In this document: piece by piece, positions 1,050 through 39,091 of the stretch
How positions within the stretch are numbered: position 1 is the first letter of the stretch
Layout: each line of letters starts with the position of its first letter
Assembly (NCBI GenBank): GCA_022826585.1
Contig: JAJDUR010000094.1
Location: forward strand, 1 to 64,000
Length of the DNA: 64,000 bases
Direction: 5' to 3'
Source: Dehalococcoidia bacterium
GTDB taxonomy: Bacteria; Chloroflexota; Dehalococcoidia; Tepidiformales; Tepidiformaceae
Made by a program: the position numbers and the translations under genes
Notes under the pieces: generated by a model
The model's database searches: none
Seen by the model: the letters and a program-made list of their open reading frames with translations, nothing else
What the model was told of the DNA's origin: nothing

Positions 1050-1811
1050 CTAGCGCGCGGTGTAGCCGCCGTCGACGGGGAGGGTGATGCCGGTGATGAA
1101 GGAGGCGTCGTCGCTGGCGAGGAAGGCGGCGGCGGCGGCGATCTCCTCGGGCTGACCGAGCCGGCCCATGGGGTGCAGCGACTCGAGGAAGCCGGCGACG
1201 CCCTCCTCCTCGCCCAGGGCCTCCTGGATCATCGGGGTGTGGATGTAGCCGGGGGCGATCGCGTTCACGCGGACGCCGTAATCGGCGTAGATGAGCGCGA
1301 ACTGGCGCGTCAGGCCGACGACACCATGCTTGGCGGCGATGTAGGCGCCGGATCCGTCGACGGGCGGGAACTCGGTGACGCGGCTGCTGACGAGGCCGAC
1401 GAGGCCCGCGATGGAGGCCGTGCTGATGATGGCGCCGCCGCCTCGTTCGGCCATGAGGGCGCCGCCGTGGCGGAGGCCGTAGTAGACGCCGCTGAGGTTG
1501 ACGGCGATGGTGATGTCCCACTCGGCGCGGCCGACCCCAGCGTTGTTGTAGAGCACGTCGAGCCCGCCGAGCTCGCGGACGGTCTCCTCGCAGGCGGCTT
1601 TGACCGCCTCCTCCTCGGTGACGTCGACCCTGAGGGCGGCGCTGGAGCCGCCGCCTTCGGCGATGGTGGCGGCGGTGGCCTGGGCGGATGCCTCGTCGAG
1701 GTCGACGCACATGACGCTCGCGCCCTCGGCGGCGAAGCGGAGCGACGAGGCCCTGCCGATTCCCGAACCCGCCCCCGTGACGAGCGCGACCTTCCCCTCA
1801 AGCCGGTCCAT
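1050..1811 (-). CDS. SDR-family NAD(P)-dependent oxidoreductase
   Basis: This 253-residue protein has all the classical short-chain dehydrogenase marks: a TGAGSGIG nucleotide-binding turn at about residues 12-19, an acidic residue after beta-2 (CVDLDE) that suggests NAD(H) preference, the NNAG motif near residue 90, and the catalytic Ser...Tyr-x3-Lys set (ASIAGLVG, then YIAAKHG). The C-terminus ends with the usual FITGITLPVDGGYTAR. The length is normal for the family. It lies 63 nt upstream of the thiolase-fold gene on the same strand, so a role as a 3-hydroxyacyl or alcohol dehydrogenase in the same catabolic route is plausible. The substrate cannot be read from the sequence. Confidence 0.93.
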   Translation of the reverse strand: MDRLEGKVALVTGAGSGIGRASSLRFAAEGASVMCVDLDEASAQATAATIAEGGGSSAALRVDVTEEEAVKAACEETVRELGGLDVLYNNAGVGRAEWDITIAVNLSGVYYGLRHGGALMAERGGGAIISTASIAGLVGLVSSRVTEFPPVDGSGAYIAAKHGVVGLTRQFALIYADYGVRVNAIAPGYIHTPMIQEALGEEEGVAGFLESLHPMGRLGQPEEIAAAAAFLASDDASFITGITLPVDGGYTAR

Positions 1812-1914
1812 GAGCGTCCCCCTGGCCGCGGTGGCGGCGCCCGATTGTAGGCTGCGGGCGGGCCGCCCCGCGCGGGGCGTACGATGGCGGCCACCTCAAG
1901 CGGAGGGCTCTGGC

Positions 1915-3558
1915 GTGGCAGCACTGAACGGCGGGCAGATCATCGCGCGGCAACTGAAGGCAGCGGGTATCGACACGGCCTTCGGGGTGGTGGCGGGACC
2001 CATGATCGAGGTCATGGCGGCGATGGAGCGGGAGGGCATCACGGTGGTGAACTGCCGCCACGAGGTGTCGGCGGGATTCGCGGCCTCGGCCTGGGGCTGG
2101 GCGCGGGGGAAGCCGGGCGTGCTCGTGGTCGGGTCGGGGCCGGCGCTGACGAACGCCGTCACGCCGATGTACGTCGCCACGGAAAGCGCGATGCCGCTGG
2201 TAGTGCTGGGCGGTTCGTCGGCGGGGAACCAGCGGGGGCTGGGCGCCTTCCAGGAGGCGGACCAGGTCGCGTTCGCGGCGCCCGCCTGCAAGTGGGCGAC
2301 GCAGGTCGACAGCCAGGCGCGCATCGCCGAGTACGTGCACCTCGCGCTGGGTCGCGCCCTGAACGGGCGTCCCGGGGCGGTCTACCTGGACTTCCCCGCG
2401 GAGCTGATCCGCACGCCGTTCGAGGAGGAGGACGTCCTCTGGCGCACGAGCGAGCCGGAGATCTCGCGGCCCCACCCGGACCCGGACGCCCTCGCGGCGG
2501 TGGCGGACATGCTGGCGGAGGCGGAGCGGCCGCTCGTCATCATGGGGAAGGGCGCGGGCTGGGCGGAGGCGGGGCTGCCGCTGCAGCGGCTCGTCGACCG
2601 GGGCATCCCCTTCGTGTCGTCGCCGATGGGGCGGGGCTCGATCCCGGACGACCACGCGATGTTCATGAACGCGGCCCGCTCGGCGGCGCTGGGCGGGGCG
2701 GACGCCGTGCTGATGGTCGGCGGGCGCTTCAACTGGGTGTTCCAGTTCGGACAGCCGCCGCGCTTCGCCGAGGGGGCGCGCCTCGCGCACATCGACATCG
2801 TGGCGGAGGAGTTCTACAGCGGCGCCGACGTCGAAACGGGCATCGTGGCGGACTGCGCCGTGGCCGTGGAGCAGCTCAACGGGCTGCTCGAGGGGCGCAG
2901 CCTGCGCGTCGCGAACAGCGACTGGGTCGGGACGCTGCAGGAGGCGCGCGACCGGAACGAGGCGAGCTCGGCGGAGGCGATGGCCTCGGACGAGGTTCCC
3001 ATCAACCACTTCCGCCTGCTGCGCGACGTGCGCGACTGCCTCGACCGGGACGCAACGGTGACGGTCGACGCGGAGCTGACGATGGGCGTTGCGCGGGCGG
3101 TCATGCCAAGCTTCGGATCGCGCCTGCGGCTGAACTCGGGCACGACGGGCTGCATGGGCACGGGCCTTCCCTACGCCATTGGGGCGAAGCTCGCGCGGCC
3201 GGACCAGCAGGTGGTGGCGGTGCTGGGCGACTACGCCTTCGGGGCGGCGGCCCTGGAGGTGGAGACGGCGGCGCGCATCGGCTGCAACGTCGTCATCGTC
3301 GTGTCGAACAACGGGGGCATTGCGGGGCACTCCATCCAGGACCGGACGTTCGCCCCGGACGCGCCTCCCATCGCCGCCCTCCTCCCCGTCGCCTACGAGA
3401 AGACGGTCGAGATGGTGGGCGGCTGGTCGCGTCGCGTCGAGGACCCGGCCGACATCGTGCCGGCGGTCCAGGAGGCGCTGGCGGCGGACACGGTCGCGCT
3501 GGTGAACGTGCTGACGGACCCGAAGGGCCGGCGGTCAGGGTCGGCGTATCTGGGGTAG
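1915..3558 (+). CDS. Thiamine-diphosphate-dependent enzyme, acetolactate synthase/oxalyl-CoA decarboxylase-like
   Basis: I place the start at the GTG at 1915, 8 nt after GGAGG (1902-1906); the frame is open further upstream but that part is not protein-like. The 547-residue product has the three-domain ThDP fold: an N-terminal Pyr domain with the catalytic Glu (NCRHEVSAGF), a central domain (about 200-330), and a C-terminal PP domain. The PP-domain cofactor motif begins GDYAFG rather than GDGxxx and ends in VSNNGG, so the Gly after the metal-binding Asp is replaced by Tyr. It could be an acetolactate synthase-like, oxalyl-CoA decarboxylase or 2-hydroxyacyl-CoA lyase type enzyme; I cannot choose. 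It is 16 nt upstream of the selenoprotein candidate. Confidence 0.88.
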   Translation: MAALNGGQIIARQLKAAGIDTAFGVVAGPMIEVMAAMEREGITVVNCRHEVSAGFAASAWGWARGKPGVLVVGSGPALTNAVTPMYVATESAMPLVVLGGSSAGNQRGLGAFQEADQVAFAAPACKWATQVDSQARIAEYVHLALGRALNGRPGAVYLDFPAELIRTPFEEEDVLWRTSEPEISRPHPDPDALAAVADMLAEAERPLVIMGKGAGWAEAGLPLQRLVDRGIPFVSSPMGRGSIPDDHAMFMNAARSAALGGADAVLMVGGRFNWVFQFGQPPRFAEGARLAHIDIVAEEFYSGADVETGIVADCAVAVEQLNGLLEGRSLRVANSDWVGTLQEARDRNEASSAEAMASDEVPINHFRLLRDVRDCLDRDATVTVDAELTMGVARAVMPSFGSRLRLNSGTTGCMGTGLPYAIGAKLARPDQQVVAVLGDYAFGAAALEVETAARIGCNVVIVVSNNGGIAGHSIQDRTFAPDAPPIAALLPVAYEKTVEMVGGWSRRVEDPADIVPAVQEALAADTVALVNVLTDPKGRRSGSAYLG

Positions 3559-3574
3559 GGGTAGACTGCCGCGC

Positions 3575-4084
3575 ATGACTGACACCCCCGACCCACACAT
3601 CCGGCTGGCGCGCGACGATGAGCTTCCCGAGCGGCTGCGTGGCCGTGGCGACGACTTTACGCGCGTGTTCGGGCACAACGCGGAGCTGTTCGAGCGGTGG
3701 AACGAGTGGTACCGGCCGCTCATCCGGGACGGGGCGGTCTCGGCGCGGCTGAAGGAGATGGTGCGGCTCAGGGTCGCGCAGTTGAACGCCTGCGACTTCT
3801 GACAGGCCGCCCGGCTTCCCCTGTCAGGGGAAGGTGACACCCTCGAGGAGAGCACCGTCGGCAAGATTGCGACGTGGGGCGACCAGGACTTCAGCGAGGC
3901 GGAGAAGGCGGCGTTCCACTACGCCGAGCGGCTGTTCGTCGACCACGCCAACATCGACGGCGAGCTGTTCGAGGAGCTGGTCGAGCACTACACCGAGGAG
4001 CAGATCCTCGAGATCGGGTGGGCGGTTGTGAGCTACATGGGCTACGGGCGCCTGATCCACTCGTTCGGCCTGAAGCCATCCTGA
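3575..4084 (+). CDS. AhpD/carboxymuconolactone decarboxylase-like protein with in-frame TGA (candidate selenoprotein)
   Basis: From the ATG at 3575 the frame reads 75 codons to TGA at 3800-3802, then continues without interruption to a second TGA at 4082-4084. Both halves are needed for one carboxymuconolactone-decarboxylase/AhpD-like fold: first half RLRVAQLNACDF, second half with FSEAEKAAFHYAERLF and ILEIGWAVVSYMGYGR. The family has a redox CxxC; here Cys73 is present and the TGA (residue 76) sits exactly at the second Cys, giving C-D-F-U. A strong hairpin follows 12 nt after TGA. A TAGACT box (3562-3567) 7 nt before ATG suggests its own leaderless promoter. Ten nt separate it from the hydrolase gene. 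With Sec the protein has 169 residues. A pseudogene with a nonsense mutation is the alternative, made unlikely by the paralogue at 38418-38981 with TGA at the same column. Confidence 0.82.
3815..3833 (+). promoter_or_regulatory. Putative bacterial SECIS hairpin after the TGA codon
   Basis: Starting 12 nt after the in-frame TGA there is a perfect 7-bp stem, CTTCCCC paired with GGGGAAG, closing the 5-nt loop TGTCA. Bacterial SECIS elements recognised by SelB are short hairpins within the coding region just downstream of UGA, usually with a GU in the apical loop, which this one has. Position, size and loop fit; SelB binding itself is inferred. Confidence 0.65.
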
Positions 4085-35864: not shown

Positions 35865-35949
35865 TGAATGGTGACTAGTGGCTAGTGATTAGTGAGGGGG
35901 TGATTCCCCACCAACCACTACTCGCTATTCACTACTCACTATTCACTAC
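35862..35949. repeat. Heptamer inverted repeat between convergent genes
   Basis: Left arm TAGTGAATGGTGACTAGTGG then CTAGTGATTAGTGAGG; right arm the reverse complement type, CCACCAACCACTACTCGCTATTC and onwards to CACTACC. The arms supply both neighbouring stop codons: the DinB-like gene ends in TAG at 35862-35864 and the enoyl-CoA hydratase gene ends in TAG at 35948-35946. The spacer is GGGGTGATTCCCC. It could also serve as a bidirectional terminator. Confidence 0.85.
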
Positions 35950-36842
35950 CGTCCGCTGGCGCGGTAGTCGCGGTAGGGGCCGTCGCGCCAGTCGAGGGCT
36001 TCCTTGAGGCCGCCGCCGCTCTCCATGGCCTGGCGGGTGCGGTCCTGCCACTCGTACGCCTGGGCGGTGAACTGGCCGGCGGCGTCGAGGTCGGTGGAAC
36101 TGCGGATGGACGAGTAGATGCCCATGTTCTCGTAGAAGCGGTTCATGCTCGTCTTGGCGATGGCGAGGTGGTCGGCGCTGAGGTTGGCGATGCGGTCGGC
36201 GAAGGCGATGGTGCGCTCCTCGAGCTCGTCGGCGGGCCAGGCGTAGTTCACCATGCCGATCTCCTCGGCCTCGGTGCCGGTGATGTTGTCGCCCGTGTAG
36301 TAGAGCTCCTTCGCCTTCCGCATGCCGAGGACGAGGGGGAAGATGGCGCCATTGCGGGCGACGCCGAGGCCGCGCACGCCGGGGTGGCCGATGCGGACGT
36401 CCTCGGCGGCGGTGACCATGTCGGACATCATCGCCATCTCGCAGCCGCCGGCGAGGGCGTAGCCGTGCAGCTGGGCGATGGTGACCTTGGCCATGTTCCA
36501 GTAGTACATCTGGATGTCGGTGATCTGCTGCATGCCGGTGCGCATGTTCCAGAGCAGGCGGCGGCCCTCGTCGTCGACGGCACGGTGGCGGCGGACGACG
36601 GCGTCGGCGCCGCGGCCCTGGGGCGGGGTGAGGTCGTAGCCGGCGCTGAAGCAGCGTCCGGCGCCCTTGACGATGATGACGCGGATGCTGTCGTCGGCCT
36701 CGTAGTCGTGCAGGGCCTCGTTGAACTCGAAGAGAAGCTCCTGGGAGAGGGCGTTCATCTTCTCGGGGCGGTTGAGGGTGATGCGTCCGACGCGGCCGTC
36801 GGTGCCGGCGCGGTCGAGGATGAGGTTTTCGTAGTCGGGCAT
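35946..36842 (-). CDS. Enoyl-CoA hydratase/isomerase
   Basis: ATG 36842 gives 298 residues. The crotonase signature is present: oxyanion segment AGRCFSAGYDLTP, then HGYALAGGCEMAMMSDMVTAAEDVRIGHPGVRGLG. The motif sits in a crotonase fold of normal size. The gene follows the acyl-CoA ligase gene by 65 nt on the same strand and is likely in its operon. Its substrate is unknown. Confidence 0.93.
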   Translation of the reverse strand: MPDYENLILDRAGTDGRVGRITLNRPEKMNALSQELLFEFNEALHDYEADDSIRVIIVKGAGRCFSAGYDLTPPQGRGADAVVRRHRAVDDEGRRLLWNMRTGMQQITDIQMYYWNMAKVTIAQLHGYALAGGCEMAMMSDMVTAAEDVRIGHPGVRGLGVARNGAIFPLVLGMRKAKELYYTGDNITGTEAEEIGMVNYAWPADELEERTIAFADRIANLSADHLAIAKTSMNRFYENMGIYSSIRSSTDLDAAGQFTAQAYEWQDRTRQAMESGGGLKEALDWRDGPYRDYRASGR

Positions 36843-36907
36843 GGGTGCACTCCGGGGGTTGAGGTGCGGGGGATTATAGGAGGGGGCAGGGAGTGGGAGG
36901 GCGGCCG

Positions 36908-38416
36908 TCAACCGAGGCCGAGGCGCTCGGCGAGGCCGATGCGCTGGAGCTTGCCGGTCGGGCCGACGGGGATCTCGTCGACGAAGACGACGGTGCGGGG
37001 GACCTTGAAGGGCGCGAGGTGTTCGCTGCAGAGGTCGCGGACGGCGGACTCGGCGAGATCGGCGCCGTCGTTGCGGATGACGGCGGCGGCCACGTCCTCG
37101 CCGAGGGTGGCGTGGGGGAGGGCGAAGCAGACAGCCTGCCGCACGGCGGGGTGGCGGAGGATGACCTCCTCGACCTCGCGGGGGGCGACCTTCTCGCCGC
37201 CGCGGTTGATGAGCTCCTTGAGGCGGCCGGTGAGGAAGAGGTAGCCGTCCTCGTCGAGCTCACCCTCGTCGCCGGTGCGGAACCAGCCCGCATCGGTGAA
37301 GGCGTCGGCGTTGGCCTCGGGGTTGGCCTCGTAGGCGGCGGTGACGCTCGCGCCGCGGATGGAGACCTCGCCGCGCTCGTGCGGTGGCAGGGGGTCGCCG
37401 GCGGGGTCGAGGACGGCGAGCTCGATGCCGGTGGGGCGGCCCACGGAGCCGGGCTTGCGGAGGCCGGGCGGAAGGGGCTGGGCGGTCATCTGGTGGGTGG
37501 CCTCGGTCATGCCGTAGGCCTCGATCATGGGCGCGCCGAAGGTCTCCTCGATGCGTTCGAGGACGACGGGCGGCAGGGGCGCGGAGGAGGAGCGGACGAA
37601 GCGCAGGTTCGCCCGCGCGAGCGTCTCCGAGTGGCGCGAGGCGCGGGAGAGCACGAGCTGGTGCATGGTGGGGACGGCCGTGTACCAGGTCGGCTCGAAG
37701 GCATCGAGCCACTCGAAGAAGCGGAAGGCGTTGAAGTCGCCGGGGCAGGCGACGGCGCCGCCCGCGGAGAGGGGGGCGAGCAGTCCGGCGATAAGGCCGT
37801 GGATGTGGAAGAGGGGCATCACCATCAGGCAGCGATCGGCGGCGGTGAGGGCGAGGGACTCGGCGATGTTGGCGGCGGAGACCCCGAGGTTGGCGTGCGT
37901 GAGGGGCACGGTCTTGGGGCGGGAGGTGGTGCCGGAGGTCTGGAGGACGAGCGCGACATCGTCGGGGGAGGGGGGCGGGCCGGGGGTGGCGGCCAGGGGC
38001 TCGCCGTTCTCGCTCAGCGTGAGGGCGAGGCCGTCACTGTCACTTTGGAGGTCGAGGCGGCGGACGCCGGGGATTGCCGGTATCTCTTCCGCGTCGGAGG
38101 CAGCCACGACGACGCGGACACCCAGCTCCTCGAACGAGAGGGCCAGCTCTTCCTCGCGGTAGCGGGGATTGAGGGGGGCGGCGGTCCCAGCGGCGGCGGC
38201 GGCGAGGAAAGCGGCGGCCATGGCGGGGCCGTTCGACAGCACGAGGGCGACACGGTCGTTCGCCGAGATGCCGGCGCCGCGAAGCTGTCCGGCAAGGGCT
38301 TCGACCGCGGCGCGAAGGTCGGCGTAGGTTGCGTCGGGGGCGCCGGCGCCCTGGATGGCGACGGCGTCGGGGGCGCCGGCGGCGAGCAGCTCGGGAACCG
38401 TCGCCGCCGGAGACAC
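36908..38416 (-). CDS. AMP-forming acyl-CoA ligase, oxalate-CoA-ligase-like
   Basis: GTG 38416, one nt after the stop of the selenoprotein candidate, follows GGAG by 7 nt and gives 502 residues. P-loop QTSGTTSRPKTVPLTH is the form seen in the FAT2/AAE3 oxalyl-CoA synthetase branch; adenylate motifs YGMTEATHQM, WFRTGDEGELDEDGY and GRLKELINRGGEKVAP follow. Oxalate as a substrate is a similarity-based guess; fatty acid or aromatic acid ligases are alternatives. It sits in an operon with the AhpD-like gene and the enoyl-CoA hydratase. Confidence 0.92.
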   Translation of the reverse strand: MSPAATVPELLAAGAPDAVAIQGAGAPDATYADLRAAVEALAGQLRGAGISANDRVALVLSNGPAMAAAFLAAAAAGTAAPLNPRYREEELALSFEELGVRVVVAASDAEEIPAIPGVRRLDLQSDSDGLALTLSENGEPLAATPGPPPSPDDVALVLQTSGTTSRPKTVPLTHANLGVSAANIAESLALTAADRCLMVMPLFHIHGLIAGLLAPLSAGGAVACPGDFNAFRFFEWLDAFEPTWYTAVPTMHQLVLSRASRHSETLARANLRFVRSSSAPLPPVVLERIEETFGAPMIEAYGMTEATHQMTAQPLPPGLRKPGSVGRPTGIELAVLDPAGDPLPPHERGEVSIRGASVTAAYEANPEANADAFTDAGWFRTGDEGELDEDGYLFLTGRLKELINRGGEKVAPREVEEVILRHPAVRQAVCFALPHATLGEDVAAAVIRNDGADLAESAVRDLCSEHLAPFKVPRTVVFVDEIPVGPTGKLQRIGLAERLGLG

Positions 38417-38417
38417 G

Positions 38418-38981
38418 CTAGCTCTCCGCGTTCGCGCGAGGCGACTCGATGCCGAGGGAGGCGAGATGGTCGCGCATGTACTGGGGGGCGCCGGGGGTGC
38501 CGACCTCGTAGGTGTCGCCCTCGTGGCGGGGGATGACGCCGAAGGCGGTGTTGAACTTGTGCGAGAGCTCGACCGTGCCGGTGGTGATGGCCAGCTCGAG
38601 GAGCTCGCGCTCGCTGAAGTGCTCCTGGAGCTCGGCGAAGAAGGCGTCGTCGATGGAGCGGGCGTCATCGCGCACCCAGCGTTCGACAAACTGCATGGCG
38701 AGCTTGACGCGGGGTTCGAGGTCGGAGTTCTCGGGGTCGTGGATGGCCGCAATCATGCCCTCGTCCATGCCGTCCTGCTGCGCCGCAGCAGTGCGCGCGG
38801 GCGCTCAGAAGTCGCAGGCGTGGAGGGTGGCGGACTTGATGCGGACGAGGTCGCGGACGCGGGGTTCGAGGGAGCCGTACTCCCACAGCGTGCCCCACTG
38901 GACCTGGAAGGCCTCCCAGAGCTCGCGGTGCTGGCTGTAGACGCCGGCGAAACCGGCGCCGCTATCGTCGAGTCGGGGCAT
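38418..38981 (-). CDS. Second AhpD/carboxymuconolactone decarboxylase-like protein with in-frame TGA (candidate selenoprotein)
   Basis: From ATG 38981, which is 6 nt after AGGAGG, the frame reads MPRLDDSGAGFAGVYSQHRE to ACDF and meets TGA at 38807-38805, then continues to TAG 38420-38418. The second half (IDDAFFAELQEHFSERELLEL and VELSHKFNTAFGV) is the rest of the same family fold. TGA is residue 59, with Cys56, so the pattern is C-D-F-U as in the first candidate. A hairpin begins 13 nt after TGA. With Sec the product is 187 residues. It is first in an operon with the acyl-CoA ligase. The TGA is very unlikely to be a random mutation in both genes. Confidence 0.82.
38775..38791 (-). promoter_or_regulatory. 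Putative SECIS hairpin of the second candidate
   Basis: On the minus strand, 13 nt after the TGA, CTGCTGC and GCAGCAG form a 7-bp stem around GGC (or six pairs around CGGCG). Position matches the hairpin in the first candidate. The loop sequence differs from that one and lacks the GU often found in bacterial SECIS loops. Confidence 0.55.
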
Positions 38982-39091
38982 GGCGGACCTCCTGTTGGCA
39001 GGGGAATGGTAGCGGCTGCGGGGGTGGCCGTTAACCGGCATCCGGCTCCACGCGGAGCCGGACGGGCGGGTGGGTCGAGAGCGCGGGTCGC

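Follow-up and report, generated by a model that had tools for sequence, protein, structure and literature searches.

Predicted selenocysteine recoding of an in-frame UGA in AhpD-like genes of a Dehalococcoidia bacterium

An AhpD-like gene of a Dehalococcoidia bacterium (GCA_022826585.1) contains an in-frame UGA that is almost certainly recoded as selenocysteine (Sec), which would leave the gene intact. Five sequence-level observations support this reading: the UGA falls at an alignment column where homologues have cysteine, it is conserved, purifying selection acts on both sides of it, a downstream hairpin covaries and is absent from Cys homologues, and the genome carries the Sec machinery. 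We infer both selenium incorporation and catalysis from these data. The window, i.e., the whole stretch of 64,000 nucleotides that was analyzed, corresponds to contig C69 in a genome of 2.74 Mb and 127 contigs, and the features around the gene are as follows.

38418..38981, minus strand: predicted AhpD-like/CMD selenoprotein gene (the target), 187 codons with codon 59 as Sec; PF02627 match, TGA kept in orthologues, AlphaFold model
38805..38807, minus strand: UGA, predicted Sec codon, second position of the C56-D-F-U59 motif
38775..38791, minus strand: putative bSECIS hairpin CUGCUGC-GGC-GCAGCAG, 7 bp; stem conservation, covariation, synonymous null
38988..38993, minus strand: Shine-Dalgarno AGGAGG, seen in the sequence; kept by four of five congeners inspected
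36908..38416, minus strand: AMP-binding acyl-CoA ligase (FadD7-like); PF00501, 262 bits; NF004511, 443 bits, below the cut-off of 650
35946..36911, minus strand: enoyl-CoA hydratase/isomerase family gene, overlapping the ligase end; PF00378, 145 bits
39092..40240, minus strand: rplA and rplK (ribosomal L1 and L11), upstream of the target on the same strand; PF00687 and PF00298; synteny conserved

The gene, its neighbors, and its relatives

The target ORF starts with ATG at 38981, reads LHACDF-TGA at its motif, and is then open up to the TAG at 38420-38418; the GTG start of the ligase, at 38416, lies one base past this stop. Read through its TGA, the gene matches PF02627 at 32.9 bits (gathering score 23). 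The AGGAGG start, the CDF-TGA motif, a hairpin starting 13 nt past the TGA, and the ligase one base after the stop had all been pointed out in an earlier sequence-only reading, and each is present. That reading also called the neighbor oxalate-CoA-ligase-like, and here only the more general part stands: the gene encodes an acyl-CoA ligase, but the oxalate label is loosely supported, the best NCBIfam model being that of the FadD7 fatty acid-CoA ligase, itself below cut-off.

The order rplK-rplA-ahpD-ligase is common to congeners whose contigs reach this region, with the hydratase next where the contig extends. G002 (L060 and L114, on C61) has no ligase at this place; there the enoyl-CoA hydratase comes immediately after the AhpD-like selenoprotein gene. 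Gene neighborhoods outside the genus, judged from ORF reading and not from profile searches, contain acyl-CoA dehydrogenase, GMC oxidoreductase, or Rieske-type genes and no constant partner; the association with acyl-CoA genes is limited to the genus.

Eight congeneric genomes were searched: seven have a target orthologue with the TGA, 84-96% identical, and none was found in G005. Together with the window's own gene these give eight congeneric sequences, in all of which the TGA is invariant; dN/dS among them is 0.053 before the TGA and 0.085 after it. The broken downstream halves that the sequence-only reading had named as evidence that would count against recoding were looked for in these relatives and not seen. 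Of 42 homologue loci, the motif contains the TGA in 39 and Cys in one (L123), and the remaining two (L153 and L154) are cut off before it; the Cys homologues aligned at this column read CGFC or CKMC where the target has CDFU. A search of 294 genomes across the class gave matches above 100 bits that almost always contain a single TGA; one, in G037, contains none. The closest named relatives are marine and sponge-type Chloroflexota MAGs (many named Dehalococcoidia, one Tepidiformaceae) and marine Gammaproteobacteria, including "Candidatus Litorirhabdus singularis" IMCC14734 (L138); the SB, APA, and IRC bins are presumably sponge metagenomes. A plasmid collection yielded distant homologues only, at 25-31% identity.

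The standard code yields only 58 codons before the stop, as would be expected if an ordinary AhpD-like gene had been split by a nonsense mutation. Such a pseudogene is, however, extremely improbable, because the TGA is present in all congeneric orthologues, with a downstream dN/dS well below 1, and is also found in homologues from another phylum and at one column in five paralogues. The low downstream dN/dS and the cross-phylum conservation led us to reject it; Sec recoding of an intact gene is the preferred explanation.

The downstream hairpin and the selenocysteine machinery

The target hairpin, CTGCTGC-GGC-GCAGCAG, has a 7-bp stem beginning 13 nt past the TGA, and its apical loop GGC, opening with G, starts 20 nt past the UGA in the target lineage. 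The inner 7-bp stem is kept in all 38 of the named UGA homologues that were scored, which range from Chloroflexota to marine Gammaproteobacteria; it is not kept in the Cys homologue L123, and in six Cys homologues the hairpin is not in excess of the synonymous null. Both sides have changed in six of eight pairs over 25 distinct sequences, a level reached by none of 500 shuffles, and controls in which the structure was slid along the sequence scored far lower. When the target peptide was recoded synonymously, only 6 of 4000 recodings produced a hairpin that matched the native one at bSECIS spacing. Within the hairpin (codons +5 to +10), the eight congeneric sequences have zero synonymous differences, whereas neighboring synonymous sites vary.

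Folding energy is less informative. The MFE test alone was not significant for several paralogues in this GC-rich DNA, and the hairpin argument consequently rests on covariation and position rather than on energy. The hairpin of the C14 paralogue is weak under a simple scoring rule and indistinguishable from the synonymous null, but the sequence of the region is highly conserved despite this score. In L103 (G018:C84), a homologue of the gene at 3.6 kb in the window, a shifted CCCCUGUC-GUC-GACAGGGG hairpin stands in place of the usual one and the peptide is changed; judged by the sequence, the SECIS element appears to have undergone turnover.

Termination at the UGA could in principle be followed by re-initiation at the ATG at 38768, giving two separate chains that then assemble. 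There is indeed an ATG-started ORF of 116 amino acids at 38418-38768, with a weak ribosome-binding-site-like sequence upstream of the ATG on direct reading. Nonetheless, the chain break would fall in the active-site motif, beside what the model predicts to be helix 59-69, and would leave Cys56 without a partner; Met72 is also found in the Cys homologue L123, within a GMDE motif. Nor does re-initiation account for a UGA placed exactly at the homologues' Cys or for the covarying bSECIS-like hairpin. We consider it very improbable and rejected it on the Cys-column position, the hairpin, and the break at the active-site motif, retaining Sec insertion at codon 59.

The genome contains the complete Sec set: a tRNA-Sec (selC) with a UCA anticodon (71 bits) and profile matches to selB (293 bits), selA (518 bits), and selD (337 bits). 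An absence of this machinery was the other observation that the sequence-only reading had said would argue against recoding, and it was not borne out. The selD gene (L027, G000:C41:13067-14002) has one in-frame TGA of its own and is therefore probably a selenoprotein gene itself. Over 60 genomes, selA was found in 24 of the 27 with a TGA-bearing AhpD but in 14 of the 33 others (Fisher p = 3e-4); the three TGA-AhpD genomes without selA are incomplete assemblies (54-81% complete). In G005, a single-contig genome, selA and the TGA-AhpD genes are on one contig, and all three gammaproteobacterial genomes tested that have a homologue, one of them an isolate, also have selA.

In-frame UGA appears to be read through in several genes, which is also what a genome-wide reassignment of UGA (e.g., to Trp or Gly) without local recoding would produce. 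This reading is barely conceivable, because rplA, the ligase, and the second AhpD-like gene all end in a normal TGA stop and the genome has a dedicated tRNA-Sec together with SelA and SelB; the true TGA stops in the second AhpD-like gene and the neighbors were the grounds for rejecting it. In the mechanism we favor, codon 59 would be read as Sec by tRNA-Sec(UCA) brought by SelB, itself predicted to bind the bSECIS hairpin that begins 13 nt downstream, with SelA and SelD providing Sec-tRNA and selenophosphate. The product would be a full-length AhpD-like (carboxymuconolactone-decarboxylase-fold) selenoprotein.

The five paralogues and their spread

The paralogue at 3.6 kb, which the sequence-only reading had described as having a TGA at the same column and a hairpin of its own, is as stated; its motif reads NACDF-TGA.

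3575..4084, plus strand: second predicted Sec AhpD-like gene, 169 codons; CDFU, UGA at 3800-3802; ends in a true TGA stop
3815..3833, plus strand: putative bSECIS hairpin CUUCCCC-UGUCA-GGGGAAG of the second gene, from the hairpin analysis

PF02627 was found at nine places in the genome, five of which have exactly one in-frame TGA, and in each of the five this TGA occupies the U position of CxxU (CDFU, CDFU, CRYU, CGYU, and CFTU). The four paralogues other than the target are present with U in all eight congeneric genomes. On these alignments, five PF02627 genes with the UGA at one column, kept in congeners, is more than chance would produce. It had been argued that two independent nonsense mutations at the same codon would be very improbable, but this frames the probability wrongly: the target and the second gene probably owe their UGAs to a single Sec trait inherited within a paralogous family and not to two independent events. 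The conclusion of Sec recoding does not hinge on their independence.

Two of the Sec genes (L081 at C14:5000-7100 and L109 at C34:10300-12300) are directly preceded by an AhpD-like paralogue lacking the CxxC/U pair, its motif positions reading CEAE and DDTE, respectively. In the C34 pair, the TGA stop of the partner overlaps the ATG of the Sec gene (ATGA), and in the C14 pair, the two are separated by a gap of ~20 nt that contains AAGGAGG. Both pairs are present in all nine genus genomes and the Cys-less partners form one clade, which suggests that partner and Sec protein make a hetero-oligomer with a non-catalytic subunit.

A midpoint-rooted tree of 108 sequences, in which the direction of change is inferred from the rooting, places the Cys form L039 and the Cys clade L044/L046/L050/L051 inside Sec clades; selA is absent from the genomes of that Cys clade (G020, G028, G032, and G034). 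In the same tree, the gammaproteobacterial sequences fall inside a Chloroflexota clade (the Sec AhpD-like genes L121-L143 of marine Gammaproteobacteria). Because of this nesting, the tree suggests that the selenoprotein gene was transferred, with its hairpin, between phyla.

Fold, possible function, and known counterparts

The AlphaFold model of the target has a pLDDT of 84 and a pTM of 0.82; its top Foldseek matches are all AhpD-like/CMD proteins, and the all-helical fold agrees. PA0269 (2ijc), Atu0492 (2gmy), mlr4105-type AhpD-like proteins, 2pfx, and 3c1l match with a TM of 0.63-0.70 by query length. These four structures have Cys and not Sec, are about 20% identical, and have the His of CxxCxxxH where the target has Arg63; in 2ijc and 2gmy, the two whose alignments were read, CxxC is at the aligned position. 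AhpD proper has a CxxCxxxH motif that includes a proton-relay histidine. The relay histidine was not found in the target-family alignment, where Arg63 is invariant at its position; the structures of Mycobacterium tuberculosis AhpD are weak matches (E about 1), and ahpC was not found beside the target gene. Since Arg63 replaces the relay histidine, the textbook AhpD peroxidase mechanism is unproven for the predicted enzyme.

The most likely role, which we hold with modest confidence, is that of a CxxU selenol/thiol peroxidase or reductase; as such, it would cycle between selenol-thiol and selenenylsulfide. The ligase and hydratase adjoin the target, and the second Sec gene directly follows a TPP enzyme whose nearest match is oxalyl-CoA decarboxylase (361.9 bits, below cut-off; window 1600-4084), so our best guess is a selenol/thiol redox role near CoA-ester catabolism. 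With the TPP enzyme before the second gene and a FadD7-type ligase after the target, both may touch oxalyl-CoA or 2-hydroxyacyl-CoA metabolism.

Sec could also be inserted for a different main task, namely reductive dehalogenation like that of the debrominase Bmp8 rather than peroxide or disulfide reduction. Sec removes halide in iodothyronine deiodinases, and by analogy the target might do likewise: it has a profile match to Bmp8 (43.9 bits) with a fold TM of 0.67, and its homologues come from marine and sponge-type metagenomes, the sponge origin being itself presumed. Bmp8 (6ohi and 6ohj) shares the CMD fold and has CxxC at the aligned position but is only 16-17% identical in the structural match, with Cys for Sec and no common genomic context seen. 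Further, uncharacterized peroxidase-related proteins and PA0269/Atu0492 outscore Bmp8, the whole CMD superfamily would match, and no halogen-linked genes were seen beside the target. We consider this unlikely. An extension of the idea, again by analogy, is just as doubtful: a CxxU selenol that would dehalogenate brominated metabolites, with five paralogues expanded in marine or sponge-associated Chloroflexota, two of them with co-translated Cys-less partners. A selenol/thiol peroxidase or reductase is preferred.

The kind of selenoprotein has been known since 2005, and the target is a further example. The Sargasso Sea survey (PMC1088965) described AhpD-like/CMD-domain CxxU selenoproteins, as did the GOS survey (PMC2398784) under the name "AhpD-like 2" (pfam02627, CxxU); the Pfam family, the CxxU motif, and the UGA with a close bSECIS hairpin are all alike. 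Those sequences are metagenomic reads, whereas here there are five paralogues in an assembled genome, defined operons, hairpin covariation, and Sec-to-Cys conversions. The portion seen of a 2026 review of the prokaryotic selenoproteome (PMC13188914) includes a CMD-like selenoprotein (PF02627, CxxU) of the same fold family and Sec motif, and that portion does not mention a five-paralogue expansion, a Cys-less co-translated partner, or Chloroflexota; the string "chloroflex" is absent from its text. The best NCBIfam model for the proteins tested, NF053654 (YciW-related (seleno)protein), has the (seleno)protein in its name, but the target, at 44.9 bits against a cut-off of 310, is outside that equivalog. 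Among the papers searched, none combined SAR202 with selenoproteins, and none joined sponge, Dehalococcoidia, and selenocysteine. Less expected are the five-paralogue expansion, the sharing across phyla, and the two Sec genes beside Cys-less paralogues.

With a hairpin where there is UGA, none where there is Cys, and compensatory changes between, the family is an unusually clean natural experiment, and because one homologue belongs to a named strain ("Candidatus Litorirhabdus singularis" IMCC14734), the biochemistry can be tested. In standard gene calls, all five genes would end early and lose their active sites, and such calls would hide a selenium-dependent redox system across the whole genus.
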